Source: Hyaloraphidium curvatum (Eukaryota; Monoblepharomycota; Hyaloraphidiomycetes; Hyaloraphidiales; Hyaloraphidiaceae). From it: a stretch of 64,000 nt of DNA. A program made the position numbers and the translations under genes. Positions within the stretch are counted from its first letter, which is position 1. Each line of letters begins with the position of its first letter. Shown piece by piece: positions 1,012 to 30,675 of this stretch. Under the pieces are notes generated by a model. The model saw only the letters and a list, made by a program, of their open reading frames with translations, was not told the DNA's origin and ran no database searches. Where the stretch lies: positions 186,001 to 250,000 of the forward strand of contig JAIVFI010000029.1 in NCBI GenBank assembly GCA_025558095.1, given 5' to 3'.

Positions 1012-3055
1012 TCAAAGCAACTTGGCGGCCTCGACGACCTTGGCAGCCGTCATCCCCAGCTCCTCCATCACCTTCCCGCCGGGCGCGGAGATGCCGAACC
1101 TGTCGATCGCCACGACCTTGCCGTCGAGCCCGACGTACTTGTACCACGCCAGGCTGACCCCGGCCTCGATCGCCACCCGCTTGCGGCACGCCGAGGGGAG
1201 CACCTGCTCGCGGTACTCGGCCGACTCGCGGTCGAACGCCTCGAAGCAGGGCACCGAGACCACGCGGGCGCCGGGGCCGAGCTCCTTGGCCGCCGCGACG
1301 GCGTGCTGCACCTCGCTGCCCGACGCGAGCAGGATGACCTGCAGGTCGGCCTGCTCCTTGACGAGCACGTACGCGCCCTTCAGCACGCCGTCCCTGCGCA
1401 CCGAAGCGGGGTCGAACGACAGGTTGGGGACCACCTGCCGCGTCAGGGCGATCAGGGTGGGTCCTGTGAGCCTCGCGGCGGCGTGGGCAAAGGCGCCGGC
1501 GGTCTCCTCGGGGTCCGCGGGGCGCACGACGTCCAGGTTGGGGATCACGCGCAGGCCCGAGACGGTCTCGACGGGCTGGTGCGTGGGGCCGTCCTCGCCC
1601 ACGCCGACCGAGTCGTGCGTGAAGATGTAGATGACGGGCAGGTGCGAGAGCGCCGCGAGGCGGATGGCGGGGCGGCAGTAGTCGGCAAAGACGAGGAAGG
1701 TGGCGCCCGAGGGGCGGAAGACGCCGTCGTATGCGATGCCGTTCATGATGGAGCACATGGCGTGCTCGCGGATGCCGAAGCGGATGTTGCGGCCGCCCCA
1801 GTTCGTGGGGGTCCAGTCCTTGGACGAGTTGATGTAGTTGAGCGTCGAACCTGGAATGGGAGGCACAATGAGCGCGTGCTTGACGAAGACGGGGGCGCCC
1901 AGAGTGCGACAACCCACCGTAGAGGTCGGCGGACCCGCCGATCAGCAGCGGTAAGGCCTCGGCGACGGGCTGCAGCGCGTCGGAGCCGGCCTTGCGGGTG
2001 GCGATCTTGGCATCGGCCGGGAACTCGGGGATGGCCTTGAGCAGCGCGGCCACGTCGACCTTGTCGCGGTTCTCGAGCACCGCCGCCAGCTCGGCGTTGC
2101 CGGCCTTCCACTTGGCGTACTCGGCGTCCCACGCCTCGCGCTCGGCGGTGCGGGTCGCCTTGAGCTTGCCAAAGAAGTCGCGGGTCTCCTTGGACACGTA
2201 GAAGTGATCCTCGGGCAGGCCGAGAGCCTTGCGCGCGGCGTCGACGAACTTGGCGCCGCCCTCGCCGTGCGCCTTCTGCGTGCCGGCGACCTCGGGGATG
2301 CCCTTGCCGATGGTGGTCTTTGCGATGATGATGTGCGGCTTGCCCTTGACCTCCTTGGTCTTGTCGAGCGCGGCGGCGAAGGCGGCCATGTCATGGCCGT
2401 CGATGGTCTGCACGTGCCAGCGCAGCGCCTCGAAGCGCATCGCGGCGTCGTCGTCCTGCGTGGCGTCGGCCATGGCGTCGAGCGTGACGTCGTTCGAGTC
2501 GTAGATCAGCACGAGGTTGTCGAGCTTGGCGTGGCCGGCGAACGAGATGGCCTCGAGCGCGACGCCCTCCTGCATGCAGCCGTCGCCGGCGAGCACCACG
2601 ACGCGGTGGTCGAACAGCGGGCCGAACTTGGCGGCTGCCATCTTGCCGGACACGGCGTAGCCCACGCCGTTAGCCACGCCCTGGCCCAGCGGGCCGGTTG
2701 TCGCCTCGATGCCGGGCGTGTCCTCGAACTGCTCTGGGTGGCCGGGCGTCTTGGAGTGCAGCTGGCGGAACGCCTTGACGTCGTCGAGCGACAGATCGTA
2801 CCCGGCGAGGTGCAGCCACGCGTAGATGAACATGCTGCCGTGGCCGGCCGACAGGATGAAGCGGTCGCGGCCGAGCCACTTCGGCGCCGCCGGGTCGAAG
2901 CGCAGCGCGTTGCTGCCGAACAGCACGGCGCCCATCTCGGCGCACCCGAGCGGCAGCCCGAGGTGGCCCGACGCGCACTTGTGCACCGCGTCCATCGCGA
3001 GCCCGCGCGCCTCGGCCGCGGCCCGCGCCAGCGCAGGAGTGTCCAACGATGCCAT
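1012..3055 (-). CDS. TKL1: Transketolase
   Basis: Two exons, 3055-1918 and 1850-1012, joined across a 67-nt intron (1851-1917); 658 residues, the usual length. Transketolase moves two-carbon ketol units between sugar phosphates in the non-oxidative pentose phosphate pathway, using thiamine diphosphate and Mg2+ in the cytosol. Visible signatures are the N-terminal SGHLGLPLG block, the thiamine-binding GDGCMQEG...N motif, [10 protein letters not shown] across the splice site, and the pyrimidine-domain FGIREHAM...FADYCRP region. The joined reading gives the smooth sequence [12 protein letters not shown]. The N-terminal Met shown has no competing upstream start. Dihydroxyacetone synthase is a related alternative but the length and motifs fit ordinary transketolase. 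Confidence 0.95.
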
Positions 3056-3726
3056 GCTGCGGATCAGGCGGCGGAGGGCGATGGCGGAGGGCGAATGGCC
3101 GTGGGCGACGAGGGCAAGAAGCCTGTTTCAAAATGCCGACGCCGGAGCCGACCCGGCCGATCTTCCGTTGGCGCAAGACGTTCCGCGGCACACGGCACAT
3201 CCGCGACCACCGATCTCCCATTCTACTGCCTGGAACAAACGTGTATTCATCCTCCATGTACAGTCGGCCCAGACGAAGGCCGATTCACAATCAATGTCGG
3301 TAGCAGCCCCACGATATCCCCCCACAAGGGCGCAATGCCTCTCGGTGTCCATTCTCGGTCTCCAACAAGTTCCTCCCACTGAATCATGCGATAGAGTGAC
3401 ACGCTGACTAGACTCGGTCTACCGGAGCAGCACCGAGCAGCTGCTTCGCAAGAGCGACACCCGAAGATCCGAACATCGGTGTCCAGTTCTCCCTGGTCGC
3501 CGATGTCGAGCCCGTTTCGCATCAAGCCCACGAGTCCCGTGAGGAACGTTCTTTCGGGGCCGCGAAATCGGCCCGCGGCTTCTCCGCAAGGAACCCAAAA
3601 GCGTCGCAGAAGCCCGCTACCAAAGTCCGCGCCGAGGAAGCAAACGAACCTCAGAGGCCGATTGGAACCAAGCTCCGATAAGGCGGGGCAACAAGGACAG
3701 ACCAGAAGCCGAACAGTAGCCGGCGC
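3056..3726. other. Intergenic region upstream of transketolase
   Basis: About 670 bp between the transketolase start and the 3' end of the next minus-strand gene. Open frames here are short and have no family resemblance. It presumably holds the transketolase promoter; no TATA-like or other element stands out to me. Confidence 0.5.
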
Positions 3727-24115: not shown

Positions 24116-25044
24116 ATGGTTCCGGACCACGTTGTCATTGTTACCGCCGACCTCACGGCTTGCTATGCCGAGTGGACCAAGAACGGCTTCATTGGTGGGA
24201 AATACAGAGGCTCGCCGTCACAGGACGTCACTGACATCCACTTCTACAGTCTCTCCGCAGCCGCAGGACCCCAACAGCCCCATTGGTGAGTGCCGAAGCT
24301 CGTCCCTGGCATCCCATGAGCCTTTCCTGACCTTCAATTGGCTATTTCAGACGTTATGAATGTCTATTTTGCGGACGGGACCTACATCTCGCTCGTCTAC
24401 TGGAAGCAGCCTGGATCGGGGCCTTGGGCTTCTGGGCCCGGGTTCCAGTCGTTCGCGCTGCTGGCCAACAACCCCGATGTCAACCTGACGAGGGAGTGGC
24501 TGGCCACCCAGTCGCCCGCGCTGGTCTACCACGGCCCCTACGCGACCGACGCCAGCAAGACCGTCTACCCGACCACCGAGACCTCGGCGAGCCAGGGCCT
24601 GCCCTACATCGTGCAGTACAAGGACCGCGCTGCTGTCGTGCCCTCCACCGGCGCCCCCGTCGAGCACCCCAACGGTGCGACCGGCATCAAGGACATCCAG
24701 GTCGTCGTCAACGATGTGCCCGCCACAACCGCCAAGTACCAGGTGCTCGCCGAGTCCGCGCCGATCGAGCAGCACGGTGCTTCGGCCCGCTTCCAGGTTC
24801 GTCCAGCTAGTTGGTGCATGGATGAGCTGCAGCTGATTCGATCTCCATCCACCTCGACTCGATCTCCATCCGTCGCCAGGTTGGCCCTTCTACGGTCACC
24901 GTCATAAACGCCTGGAGCCCTGCCCTCGAGGAGCGCCTCAAGACCAAGGGCGAGGGTGTCTATGCCCTTCACCTCAAGTCGAACACCCCGCTCGAGGCCC
25001 CGCTCGTCATGGACGGCGCCGAGATCTCGCTGGTTGCGGCCTAG
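24116..25044 (+). CDS. Glyoxalase-like domain protein (VOC fold, Glyoxalase_3 type)
   Basis: Four exons: 24116-24194, 24250-24285, 24351-24796, 24880-25044; 241 residues. The N-terminus MVPDHVVIVTADLTACYAEW and the strand DVMNVYFADGTYISLVYW match the first beta-alpha-beta-beta unit of Glyoxalase_3 proteins; a second unit starts IKDIQVVVNDVPATTAKYQVL. Exon 2 is only 36 nt and reads VSPQPQDPNSPIG. It was recovered because the uninterrupted reading shifts frame before the conserved DVMNVYF strand. The fold binds metal and small metabolites; the reaction is unknown in most members. The start Met is the only one directly before the conserved strand. It is convergent with the TBC-DM9 gene. Confidence 0.78.
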
Positions 25045-25200
25045 ACGCAGCGCGTAGCTTGCCTGTAGCTGAGCTGTCCGGCAAATCTGAATCTGGACCA
25101 CCAGAGCGCGGTGTTCTCAATAGTCCCCGAATCCGATCTCATTTCATCCAGTACAAAAGCCCACAACCGTGCAAAAGCATACATATTGCAAAACGCAGCA

Positions 25201-28200
25201 TCACTTTTCCAGCAGCTTCTTTAGCGTCGTGACCCAGTGCACCTTCAGTTCGCCCGTCTCCACGCGCAGCGCCTCCTTGTTCTTGCCTTCCGTCGCGGCG
25301 TCCAGCTCGACGAGCTTCTCCTCGACGGGTTTGTCGTCCTCCTGCGGAGGTCCCTGGACCTTGAGTATCTCATATTCCTCGCAGCGGACCTCGTGGCCGC
25401 CCCATCCAATCGAAATGCCTGCGCAAGCGAAGCCGCCTTAGCAACCCAGTTTCGCGTCGAGACTGTCCGCATGCCTCACCCCTCTCGTCGCCCTCCTTGA
25501 CCCAACCGACGTGCACGCCGTCCTTGTAGAAAGCCCGCGCCACGTACAGCGGCTCGCCGTCGGCATCCACGCACCCGCCGCTGACGCATCCCGTCGTGTC
25601 CACCAGGGCGCCCGACGAGGGCATCCAGTCCAGCACGCGGTGCATGGCATAGTCCCTGATGGACGCCACGGGGTCCCCGCTGCCCCGCAGCATCGCGTTG
25701 CGCCGCAGCTTGGCATCCAGGCAGAGCACCTCGTATGCGGCGGACGAGAGCTCCTTGCCCCCGCACGAGTAGTTGCATCCACCGAGGAGGTAACTGCCCA
25801 GCGGACCCTTGCCCGGGTACAGTCCTCTCCGCCCGCCAGCGCGGCAGATAAAGAGCTGCCGGCCCTTCTTCCGGCCCTGGTCCATGTACTCGCCGCCCGA
25901 CTCGATGGCGCCGTCCGGAACGAGCCAGTTGTTGGCCTTCTTCCAAACCAGACCACACTTCGACAGGAGCTTGGCGTCGAGCACCGGGCCGTCGAGCTTC
26001 GGGAGGGTGAACTCGGTCTCGGTCGGCGCGCGGCGCGGTTCGGAGCGAGCCTTTTCCCTCGCGCTGATCTCGCTGTTGCCTTCGCTGTCGAAGGGCAGGT
26101 GTACCGAAGATGGATCGCGCTCCCATTTCGCAAGCTTGAAGCGGAACTTGAAGAAGAGGAGCTCGGCAAGCTCCAGGGTTTCTTCCATGGGAATCTTGCC
26201 GTTGAGCTCATTGATGCACTTGAGCAGCTCGTCAAAGGCCTTGCAGGCCAGCAGCTCCTCGCGCTTCCACTGCAGGATGGCGACGGCAAAGAAGAGGTGG
26301 AAGTGCGCGGTGAGGTGGCGCGACCAGAGGACCTCCCACAGCCGCATGATGTCGGTAAAGTCAAACTCGCGCTTGAACCAGATGAGCAACCAACGGAAGC
26401 AGAAGAAAAAGTTGAGGCCGTCGATGCGCTCGAGGTGGTTGTGCAGCTTCGGGTCCAGGAACTTGACGAGCCGTTCCAGGTCCAAAAGCTGGGTCCGCAT
26501 CCCGACCTGGTCGCGCGCAAAGTTTGCTTTGACGAACTCCATGAACCCAACGAAGCACCAGAAAGCCTCGACCTCGTCGCGCACGACGGCCAGCACCGGC
26601 GCGAGCAGGTCGGACATTCCCTGCACGTATCCGAGCGAGAACTCGCGGTAAGCGTACGTCACGAGGATGTCGCGGAGGATGGCCAGGTTGGTGTTCCAGC
26701 CGGCAACGCTGACGCCGGGGATGTTCGGGGGCGCCTCGTCCTCGTCAAACTCGGCAAATGCCGAGGACGCATCGCTCGCGTCTCCAGCGCCCTCCTCACG
26801 ACCGCCTTCGATCACTTTGGTGCGATCGCCGGCGAAAAACGGAATGTTCCGGTCGGTCCGCACCACGTCCTTTTCGATCCGGTAGCGGCGCTCGCGCAGT
26901 GCGGAAACCAAGTCCTGCCCTTCCGCCTCATCGCCAGCGGTGGGGCTGCGCACCGTTCCGGGTGCTTGCAGCTCCGTCTTGAGCTCACTCAGGACCGCAT
27001 TGGCCGAGGTCGAGGGGATTGCGGGGAGCTGTTCGCCGTTCAGGGCGGGCGACGAACCCGCCGATGGTGACGGACGCAAAAGCGCCTTCCACTGCCGCTC
27101 CAGCTCAAAGTACTCCTCGTTGTGCTTCGTCTTGACCTCTAGCCGCTCCGCCTCAGTTGAGGTCCACTGCAAAAGCTCGTCAGCGGATTAAGGCAGCACC
27201 AGATGACCAGCCAACCTTGTAGACGCCAAGCAGGAAAGGCCACAGGCTGGGGCGGATGTCCATGTCGATGCCCGAGTAGAAGACGTGCTCCCGTATTTTC
27301 TCCTCGCTCTTCTCCAGCCTACCCTCCTTGTCGAACCACGACAAGAAATCCTCCGGGGCAATTGGCATGCCGGTGCGATGGTGGTTCCGCCACTCCAGAG
27401 GCATGTCATCGAACTCGACCACCTCGAAATCGCCAAGCTCCGTTTCCTCAGCTGGCAAGTCCTCCATCTGGAAGTCCGAGCCGTCCTCCCGCTTCGTTTC
27501 CTTGCCTTTGCCCAGAAGTACATCCTCGGCGAAATGGTTGATGTAGTTGCGGGCAGGCTCGAAATCTTCTGCAATCTTCGCGGCTTCCTGTGCGGCACAA
27601 GTTTAAGTTAGTAATCGTTCAAGGTTCGCCAAACACTACCAACTTCAGCGGGAAGGACCTTGGCGACGTACTCCTGCGGCAGCAAGCCCACGGCTTGCCG
27701 TGCAGCGGGAACAGCTTCAAGCAGGTCTACGGCACGGTTCTGTGTGCTCTTCGTGATCTTTGCGAAGCGCTCCAGAATGCCGAACTGGAAGTCGCCCAGA
27801 ACCTTGCCGATGCCGCTCTGCGACGGTTTCCGTCCATGCTGGGTGGAACCTGCGGCAGCTGGCTCCTCCGAGGAAGAGCCACCGGCGGACTCGGACCTGG
27901 GAGGCGGTTCCGGCGCCCCCGACGGAGTCTGTGCGTGAGAAGCCTGGAAAGCCTCATCACGCGGCGCAGGTGTGGCCGGTGGAGACGCAGCCGCGGGGGG
28001 CGGCCCGGGCGGCGGTGCGATGTTTCCCCGAGAAACCTCGTGGTGTGCCCGGAGAAGGGCAATCTCGGCGTTCTCGGCGTCAGATCGTTTCGGCGGCGGG
28101 GCGTCGGGGCGCCGGTACTTTGGCGCCGGTGGGGTGTACGAGCCGCCAGCCAATGGGGAAGACGCGGGCAGAACAGTGTAGGTCGGGTTCTGCGCCGTCG

Positions 28201-28663
28201 CGATGTGCAAGATGTTCATGCCAGCCTCTCGGAACCAAGACGTGAGCAAGTCAACCACTCGCTGCCGCGGTTCGCCCCGCCTCGGCAGGATCCACAAAAT
28301 GGGCAACGCCGCGCTGCTCGATGCCGGGTCGTCGCCTACGTAGAGGCTGAGTCCGACGTACGGCGACGTGTCGGGCAGCTGAAACGAGAAGAGCCGCAGG
28401 TCCAGCAGGGGGAACGACATGGCGTTCTGCAGCGCGGCCGACGACAGCTCCAATGGCTGCATCGCGCGCGGCGGGTTCTTCTGCGCCGCCGCATCTGCCC
28501 GGTCGATCGCAGTCGCGTCTGAGCGCGGGAGGCCCGTCGGGAGGAAGCTGAACAGCGTGAGGTCGTCCGACGCGACGAGCGCAATGCTGCCGACTGTGGG
28601 CGACGCGCCGTCCGCCGGTCGGATAAGCACGCCCGTGCGAGCGTGCAGCAGCCGTAGGCTCAT
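25201..28663 (-). CDS. GYP7-type TBC RabGAP fused to DM9 repeats
   Basis: Four exons: 28663-27644, 27587-27216, 27166-25480, 25418-25201; 1098 residues. The N-terminal part (MSLRLLHARTGVLIRP...) and the LPQEYVAKVLP region resemble TBC1D15/GYP7, which stimulate GTP hydrolysis by Ypt7/Rab7 at vacuoles. The TBC domain has the arginine finger IEKDVVRTDRN (Arg567) and glutamine finger YVQGMSDLL (Gln646). After the TBC domain the same open frame continues into two DM9 (DUF3421) repeats: WLVPDGAIESGGEY...LFICRA...LYPGK...GGKELSSAAYEVL (873-946), and DWMPSSGALVD...GEPLYVARA...GWGGHEVRCEEYEIL (977 onward, across the last intron). GYP7 proteins normally lack DM9. The exon 3 reading frame covers both domains without a break. 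Confidence 0.87.
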
Positions 28664-28830: not shown

Positions 28831-30415
28831 CTAATAGACCAGCGAAACCAGGCCATAGCGAATGAACGCCGCAATGCACGTCCCCACTGCTTGCAGCACC
28901 ATGACCGCAATCGTTGTCCGTTCCTCGCTAAGCGGGCCCAGTTTGACGAGCACGAGATTGATCAGCGTCAGGTTGTTGACGTGCGTCCAATCTCCCGTCT
29001 TGGGATCCTTGCGGATGTCCGCGAGGCCGAGGATCCGGAGGATGTTGAGGAACAAGCGGCCCAGCCCCTTGATCTTCTTGGTTCCTTCCTCCGACCCATC
29101 CAGGCACGCGTACGAAGGCTCCAGAAGTCCCGTCTTCGGATTCAGCTTCGGCATCCTATGCCGCGGGCAGTGCACGAAGCCAAACACCTGCGGGCAGGAG
29201 TAGAGGAAGTTGAAGATTTGAGGGATATGGAATAGCAAGATCGTCTTGCTGATGTGCGACAGGATGCCAACCACGGCAAAGGTCATCCCGGCAAAGTAGG
29301 CATAGGTGTCGCCTCCAAAGACGGCGGCGGGGAACCTAGAGGCGCCAGCAATGGGCTACAGGTCACGACAGACGACCCGAAACTCATGGACACCTACCAG
29401 TTGTGCCACAGGTACCCAACTGTCACGCCGATGAAGGGCAGAATAAAGTAGAGGCTCATTAGATGTGCTTGCATCGTGGCCGGGTTGTGTTGCCCAGTCG
29501 TCGCCATTTGGTAGAGGTCGTTGGCAAGGATGGAGAGGGCGATGACGAGCGACTGGCCGCCCTCGATGCCGTTGATCCCTGCGAGAATGTTGACGGCGTT
29601 CGTGCAAAACACGCAGAGCGCGACCATGTAGCAGTAGTACAAGAAGCCTGAAAGAGTCGGTGTTCAGGAATTGGCGACACTTATTCTTTTGCGCTACCAA
29701 CCGAGGTCAACGAGGTCAGTGCCCAGCAGTCCCCGCAGCGGCAGCGGAACTTTGATGTCCGTCACTCCGTACGTGACGTAGTAGACTGTGAGCAGCGGAA
29801 TCGAGGCAAAGACGGGGAACCAGATCTTGACCCGCCACCGAATGTCGAAGACGTCGTCCGCGAAGCCCAGGAACAGCATGGACTGCAGCGCAAGCAGCCC
29901 GGAAAGGAAAGAGGCGAGCTGCAATGTGGAGACTCCGTGAGGCAAGGAAGCCAAGTCCGTCCGACGTTCCGACCTTGTCCAGTGGAAAGTCTCCAGCCAG
30001 AATGATCCCGTCGCCCGTTTCGAGAGCGTTCAGCTTCTCTCCCTCTTCATCTCTCAACCGCACGCCAAACCATTGCGCGAAAGGCACGGGAATGAACAGG
30101 AACATGGCCACGAAGTAGACTGCGCCCGCCACGACGCCCATCGACTCGGCCCTGCATTCCGGCGTCAGCGTTCCCGAATCTTGTCCCTGCAACGCTTCAA
30201 GATACTGACCGCACGGGCTTGTCGTTCTTCTGGACATCCTTCCCGCTTTGGCCCGCCTGGATGAAGATCGGCGCCGCGAGCGGGATGATGCGGTGCGTCG
30301 CGTAGGCGGCCAGAACCGAGACCGCAAAGGAAACGAGGACCGGGGAGTGGAAGAGCGCCGTCACGGCTATCGCTACCGATATTGGAACCGGCAGCGAAGA
30401 CGCCAGATTGGGCAT
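28831..30415 (-). CDS. ALG7: UDP-GlcNAc:dolichyl-phosphate GlcNAc-1-phosphotransferase
   Basis: Five exons: 30415-30210, 30151-29974, 29918-29702, 29647-29398, 29335-28831; 451 residues. ALG7/DPAGT1 makes the first lipid-linked sugar of N-glycosylation in the ER membrane and is the tunicamycin target. Visible signatures are AESMGVVAGAVYFVAMFLFI, the acidic catalytic loop LFLGFADDVFDIRWR, CTNAVNILAGINGIEGGQ, the spliced HNWFPAAVFGGDTYAYFAGM, and KTILLFHIPQIFNFLYSCPQ. About ten hydrophobic segments are present. MPNLASSLPV is chosen as the start because the first helix follows directly; an upstream Met (30469) is possible. Intron boundaries are firm since each join restores a conserved block. 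Confidence 0.94.
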
Positions 30416-30675
30416 ATTGGTGGTGGCCGACGTGGCGACTTCTGAGAAGTGACTCCTCGACTCGCGCAATGCATGTGCGTCCCAATTTTACGTCGGGACT
30501 TTCGAATCGCGATACGTGGATTGATGATATTAAACAGTCTAATGTGTTGTAGCTCAGTGAATCACTGCACTCAAGTTGCACAGATGAATAGTTGCGCAGA
30601 GGATGTCAAGTCAAAGCCACGCCGGCCAACGGCCTCCGCCAGCAAAGTCCGCCGGCCGGAAACCCAGTTGCTTGC

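Follow-up and report, generated by a model that had tools for sequence, protein, structure and literature searches.

A GYP7/TBC1D15-type RabGAP with a C-terminal DM9 doublet in Hyaloraphidium curvatum, and candidate DM9 fusions elsewhere in its genome

Hyaloraphidium curvatum, an early-diverging fungus, belongs to the class Hyaloraphidiomycetes of the phylum Monoblepharomycota. We analyzed a 64,000-nucleotide stretch of its genome (the window; positions 186,001 to 250,000 of contig JAIVFI010000029.1, assembly GCA_025558095.1) in which a minus-strand gene at 28663-25201 encodes a Rab GTPase-activating protein (RabGAP) of the GYP7/TBC1D15 type that ends in two DM9 repeats. We consider it probable, judging from sequence, that this DM9 doublet would serve the RabGAP as a cytosolic targeting module for a subset of endomembranes. 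The combination of TBC and DM9 domains is already on record in NCBI, in the hypothetical protein DFJ74DRAFT_710868 (P0001) of H. curvatum, which has 987 amino acids and a Pfam list of PF00566 and PF11901. What is new here is that, according to our gene models, DM9 doublets are joined to several different modules in one genome.

The gene was spliced by eye into four exons encoding 1098 amino acids (Table 1), and the ends proposed in the initial annotation, 25201..28663, match this model exactly. In a Pfam scan of the full protein, the TBC domain was found at 6.3e-35 (121 bits, curated cut-off 25.2) and DM9 (PF11901) at 1.6e-13 (51 bits in three stretches, cut-off 26.2). The C-terminal 240 amino acids alone matched DM9 at 1e-19 (71 bits in four stretches, against the same 26.2), bearing out the DM9 assignment of this part. 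The TBC core, the first repeat and most of the second lie together in a single open frame of 605 amino acids that contains exon 3; this frame alone matched RabGAP-TBC (5e-35), RabGap-TBC_2 (4.3e-14) and DM9 (4.3e-12, three stretches). Exon 3 encodes repeat 2 as far as residue 1026, and exon 4 supplies the remainder. The initial annotation held that one exon carries the catalytic core with at least one and a half DM9 repeats and that the fusion is real, and both points agree with these data. The NCBI model agrees with ours in the TBC-DM9 part and in where the protein ends, with residues 850-1098 identical. It omits two N-terminal stretches of exon 1, the first of which has a counterpart in an environmental protein, P0002. 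The exon 1 region gave no match in the Pfam scan.

Table 1. Coordinates of the RabGAP gene and its parts (window positions) and of other modelled DM9 fusions (genome loci).
Feature	Position	Strand	Description
Exon 1	27644..28663	-	N-terminal region, 340 amino acids; splice model; start and parts common to NCBI model
Intron 1	27588..27643	-	56 nucleotides, GTTGGT...ACTAAC...CAG; join identical in NCBI model
Exon 2	27216..27587	-	residues 341-464; GYP7/TBC1D15-like region begins here
Intron 2	27167..27215	-	49 nucleotides; join identical in NCBI model
Exon 3	25480..27166	-	single frame with the catalytic TBC core, a linker, all of DM9 repeat 1 and most of repeat 2
Intron 3	25419..25479	-	61 nucleotides, phase 1, precedes ISIGWGG; splits DM9 repeat 2
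Exon 4	25201..25418	-	completes DM9 repeat 2; charged tail with LKKLLEK as its last residues; stop codon ends at 25201; end identical in NCBI model
Arginine-finger motif (presumed)	26849..26884	-	YRIEKDVVRTDR, residues 559-570; IEKDVVRTDR aligned with TBC1D15
Core TBC stretch	26144..26695	-	residues 622-805
Glutamine-finger motif (presumed)	26609..26632	-	GYVQGMSD, residues 643-650; YVQGM aligned with TBC1D15
DM9 repeat 1	25718..25957	-	residues 868-947, all in exon 3; K43-equivalent in PGK, E59-equivalent in GGKE
DM9 repeat 2	25357..25636	-	residues 975-1047, split by intron 3; K114-equivalent is Trp (GVHVGWV)
L025	G000:C30:192000-198500, 2836 onward in reversed locus	-	two DM9 repeats, then PI-PLC (model)
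L024	G000:C6:382500-389500	-	SMP-C2-C2 stretches (MUG190/tricalbin-like), then two DM9 repeats (model)
L026	G000:C34:490000-496500	+	two DM9 repeats, then SH3 (model)
L022	G000:C24:414500-419500, 1678-3246	+	two DM9 repeats and R-SNARE-like tail, single open frame of 523 amino acids

A search of PDB-type structures gave TBC1D15 (2e-61) and TBC1D17 (4e-60) as the best matches to the RabGAP. The four TBC1D15/17 structure sequences fell between 2e-61 and 2e-58, and the next subfamily, TBC1D22, followed at 1e-16. Residues 410-494 and 622-802 align with TBC1D15, and the alignment with TBC1D17 starts at residue 412. Two motifs, YRIEKDVVRTDR and GYVQGMSD, are present, which we take to be the arginine and glutamine catalytic fingers of the TBC domain. 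GYP7s of chytrid-type fungi were among the nearest relatives in the matches listed from a search with the TBC-DM9 part. These results uphold the earlier assignment of the protein to GYP7. The N-terminal domain PF12068, which many GYP7/TBC1D15 proteins have, was not matched in a Pfam scan of the full protein. PF12068 is also missing from the stored Pfam lists of the chytrid-type GYP7s P0005-P0010 and P0023 and is therefore not required in this type. The protein shares the GAP domain, both finger motifs and the pre-TBC region with GYP7/TBC1D15/TBC1D17 RabGAPs (PF00566, PF23436), but its C-terminal DM9 doublet sets it apart from them.

Fourteen TBC-profile matches were found in the genome, some of which are pieces of a single gene. 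Because the best TBC match to DFJ74DRAFT_710868 elsewhere in the genome reaches only 32% identity over residues 550-632, we found no second GYP7 in the genome. The highest mean hydropathy of any 19 consecutive residues of the RabGAP is 1.37, consistent with a soluble protein. Its family membership predicts that the RabGAP promotes the hydrolysis of GTP on Rab7/Ypt7 at late endosomes and the vacuole.

We then asked how widely the architecture occurs. The word-based search with the TBC-DM9 part scored 7988 candidates and matched 1458 proteins, 120 of which were listed. Among these 120, PF11901 appears in the stored Pfam lists of DFJ74DRAFT_710868 and P0002 only; the lists of the GYP7s of Geranomyces, Cladochytrium, Rhizophlyctis, Mucor and others among the matches do not contain it. 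The TBC-DM9 architecture therefore looks rare among these matches. The initial annotation knew of no established GYP7 that carries DM9; in NCBI, both domains are already listed for the protein itself. A protein search with the DM9 part gave only DFJ74DRAFT_710868 and overlooked P0002, so that being missing from such word-based searches is weak evidence. A literature search, whose scope left most subscription-journal papers outside, found no paper linking DM9 with a TBC domain in fungi or with Hyaloraphidium.

P0002 has 1055 amino acids, the same order of parts, and 77% identity over 92% of the TBC-DM9 query. Compared with DFJ74DRAFT_710868, it is 69% identical over the whole alignment: 65% in the N-terminal region, 69% before the TBC domain, 88% in the TBC domain, 59% in the linker and 69% (112/163) in the DM9 part. 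Its end, which falls where intron 3 lies, resembles an intron left unspliced, as does the end of P0122, an environmental DM9 fragment of 150 amino acids with 73% identity.

The doublet resembles the oyster lectin CGL1/CgDM9CP-1. A five-row profile of Hyaloraphidium-type doublets aligned with this lectin (5id8 and others) at an E value of 9e-12, over positions 4-161 of 163. CGL1 is described as binding mannose and high-mannose N-glycans through two sites, site A consisting of Asp22, Lys43, Glu59 and the Ala127 backbone and site B of Lys114, Glu130 and the Ala56 backbone (PMC4932603); the mutations D22A and K43A are reported to abolish binding (PMC5712788). At the site-A positions D22, K43 and E59, the RabGAP doublet has Glu, Lys and Glu. 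At the site-B position K114 it has Trp, and so it lacks the site-B lysine of CGL1-like lectins.

The same positions were compared across an alignment of 19 doublets. The repeat-1 lysine is kept in every one (19/19), whereas the repeat-2, or site-B, lysine is present in all nine doublets from elsewhere and in none of the ten Hyaloraphidium-type doublets, which have Trp, Tyr, Phe or Asn instead. Site-A lysine and glutamate are both kept in 10/10 Hyaloraphidium-type doublets, and the Asp22 position is acidic in five of the nine that cover it. This alignment holds 12 of the 16 DM9 proteins found (P0121 as L023) and omits P0128, P0131, P0132 and P0136; the first three of these have lysine in both repeats in another alignment. 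From these comparisons, the RabGAP doublet most likely folds like CGL1, with two pseudo-symmetric repeats and ligand pockets at the repeat boundary. Judged by the aligned residues, the RabGAP doublet partly retains the first CGL1-type pocket, while the second is without its lysine.

Like the DM9 doublet proteins CGL1/CgDM9CP-1, Anopheles PRS1 and those of Coemansia, the RabGAP has two tandem DM9 repeats, and the site-A lysine and glutamate are present in it. According to the initial annotation, DM9 occurs singly in fungi, which is contradicted by the doublets in Coemansia and at all seven modelled Hyaloraphidium loci. Relative to CGL1, the RabGAP doublet carries insertions within repeat 1 and in the stretch that separates the two repeats, in addition to the site-B substitution. 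As described, CGL1 (143 amino acids) and PRS1 (144 amino acids) are hardly more than two DM9 repeats (PMC4932603, PMC2902509), whereas the RabGAP doublet sits at the C-terminal end of a large enzyme. DM9 is likewise reported as a module of larger proteins in Natterin-type proteins with aerolysin and in insect proteins with PF12248/farnesoic-methyltransferase-like parts (PMC8402412, PMC2902509; P0127). Its partner there is a pore-forming module or PF12248; here it is a RabGAP.

A DM9 family search of the genome found seven loci, and two more protein searches added none that stood up. By our gene models, five of the seven join the doublet to another module: the RabGAP, PI-PLC, SMP-C2, SH3 and, weakly, an R-SNARE-like tail. 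The L022 fusion lies within one open frame; those at L025, L024 and L026 depend on models spliced by eye. At L025, the DM9 stop sits within a splice donor, and in the model a 58-nucleotide intron leads in frame into the PLC N-terminus. The joined sequence aligns with the N-terminal part of a PLC paralogue that has no DM9, with 22/64 positions identical (two-sequence E value 4e-6). This paralogue is encoded on the opposite strand at a distance of about 10 kb; PLC-X loci number three in the genome. At L024, both DM9 repeats together match at 4.5e-20, with SMP (7e-10) and C2 (5e-7) in separate open frames and a last C2 (6.7e-13) joined to DM9 by a modelled 52-nucleotide intron. At L026, SH3_1 matches at 1.5e-6 with introns chosen by eye. 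L023 (P0121) is a doublet alone, and a Pfam scan of L027 gave no further domain.

Reading the DNA of L024 and L026 by eye suggests that both have an intron with the position and phase of intron 3. In a tree of the 19 doublets, for which seven outside sequences were trimmed at a hand-chosen motif start, the Hyaloraphidium-type group is moderately supported (82.4 by the Shimodaira-Hasegawa-like approximate likelihood ratio test, 74 bootstrap) and the inner branches are weak. A mixed alignment of GYP7 and DM9 proteins was discarded because DM9 rows fell on TBC columns. The common intron 3 position, the loss of the repeat-2 lysine and the moderately supported clade suggest that one ancestral doublet was copied onto several partners within the Hyaloraphidium lineage.

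In the reading we favor, the CGL1-like doublet would bring the GAP to a subset of endomembranes from the cytosolic side, and the GAP would then act on Rab7/Ypt7 at late endosomes and the vacuole. We infer recruitment from the ligand-site residues that are kept and from the types of partner; it gains weight because the doublet is, in the gene models, joined to other membrane or signalling modules. Most of the modelled DM9 partners are presumably kinds that act at cytosolic membrane faces. The reported move of Anopheles PRS1, a cytoplasmic protein with two DM9 motifs, to vesicle-like structures (PMC2902509) also fits this reading. A related one-pocket doublet would have been copied onto PI-PLC, SMP-C2, SH3 and possibly an R-SNARE-like protein, and the ligand may therefore be common to the membranes of these proteins. 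The initial annotation had proposed a Rab7 regulator recruited by recognition of glycans or damage. Recruitment by DM9 is the part that we prefer; glycan or damage recognition stays hypothetical, with pocket A kept in part and pocket B without its lysine.

Several observations weigh against this reading. Domain co-occurrence alone is no proof of recruitment. From DFJ74DRAFT_710868 to P0002, the DM9 part has changed more than TBC (69% versus 88% identity) and only somewhat less than the linker (59%). The RabGAP doublet as a single query matched no DM9 structure in PDB; only the profile does. The fusions themselves also have gaps: at L025, PLC-X (6.5e-55) lies further on, with the joins from the PH-like start to PLC-X outside the model, and one PLC intron was picked after seeing the paralogue. 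The L024 model covers only the C2-DM9 join, leaving the SMP-to-C2 joins outside. The SH3 of L026 depends on splice choice, the unspliced frame giving SH3_2 at 0.25 only. L022 is the weakest of the five fusions: its tail matches Synaptobrevin at 7.4e-4, under the Pfam cut-off, and in PDB its matches to YKT6 and tomosyn have E values of about 0.1.

Two alternatives, which differ over a sugar ligand, are sharper versions of this targeting reading, and their odds overlap with it. In one, the doublet would be an adaptor that binds protein or lipid but no sugar and provides constitutive placement or oligomerization. We regard this as a serious possibility, at somewhat below even chances. The modelled partners, mostly kinds that act at cytosolic membrane faces, would suit such an adaptor, as would the loss of one sugar site. 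CGL1 is moreover described as a dimer (PMC4932603), in keeping with oligomerization. An adaptor of this kind is harder to reconcile with the site-A lysine and glutamate, which all ten Hyaloraphidium-type doublets keep.

In the other, the doublet would be a damage sensor that binds luminal high-mannose glycans of a broken vacuole or endosome and recruits the Rab7 GAP, and in the sister proteins PLC and SMP-C2, for repair or recovery. Galectins are reported to read exposed luminal glycans on badly damaged lysosomes in this way (PMC12128658), and in highly infected cells PRS1, a cytoplasmic protein with two DM9 motifs, is described as relocating to vesicle-like structures (PMC2902509). The binding of CGL1 to mannose and high-mannose glycans, with its loss in D22A and K43A (PMC4932603, PMC5712788), and the retention in the RabGAP of site-A Lys and Glu, with Glu aligned to Asp22, would also fit. 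Yet the site-B lysine is lost in 10/10 Hyaloraphidium-type doublets and the Asp22 position is acidic in only 5/9, and we consider a damage sensor improbable.

That the DM9 tail is a neutral passenger, left by a fusion and functionless in the GAP, would agree with its lower conservation relative to TBC and with its absence from 118 of the 120 relatives listed (of 1458). However, P0002 keeps the frame, both repeats and site-A Lys and Glu at 69% identity overall, and four further modelled loci carry the doublet on other proteins, making a passenger quite unlikely. A gene-model artefact in which two adjacent genes were merged is largely refuted, and very unlikely indeed, given the unbroken frame across the TBC/DM9 junction, the independent NCBI model that joins the same parts, and the part order repeated in P0002.

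The intracellular role of DM9 is unsettled, with CGL1 described as a mannose lectin and PRS1 as cytoplasmic and moving to vesicle-like structures (PMC4932603, PMC2902509). Fusions to a Rab7-type GAP and, as modelled, to PI-PLC, SMP-C2 and SH3 would tie DM9 to membrane traffic; they supply concrete partners to test and hint at an intracellular job for the module. A GYP7-type GAP would in turn gain a built-in candidate targeting module that is missing from nearly all of its listed relatives. The one-pocket doublet could be a portable cytosolic sensor of a common membrane signal, such as damage-exposed luminal glycans, that spread onto a Rab7 GAP, PI-PLC, a lipid-transfer-type SMP-C2 protein, SH3 and an R-SNARE-like protein. 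This broader proposal is improbable. If true, a single signal would at once switch Rab identity, phosphoinositides, lipid transfer and fusion. Such a system would be the fungal equivalent of damage sensing by galectins, with sensor and effector in one polypeptide.

Three candidates were rejected along the way. An insertion of DM9 into an older GYP7 C-terminus was considered, but the likeness of LKKLLEK to the ELWELVGLLERR end of chytrid GYP7s was not above chance: in 11 pairs of such tails with 1000 shuffles each, 122 to 989 shuffles scored at or above the real comparison. P0003, the TBC1D15 of Heliothis virescens, had an oddly high score in the TBC-DM9 search that traces to its own TBC region being duplicated in tandem, probably a gene-model artefact; its stored list has no DM9. 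A possible eighth DM9 locus, C11:628580 (E 0.0036), missed by the DM9 family search, is another frame over a gene that we take to be of the Oxa1 type.

Two genes flank the RabGAP gene in the window. A convergent neighbor on the plus strand, at 24320-25045, has a weak Glyoxalase_3 match (5e-5), just under the cut-off. The next gene upstream, on the minus strand at 28831-30600, matches Glycos_transf_4 at 2.5e-9 (Pfam) and appears to encode the enzyme for the first step of N-glycan assembly, for which the name GPT/ALG7 is suggested.

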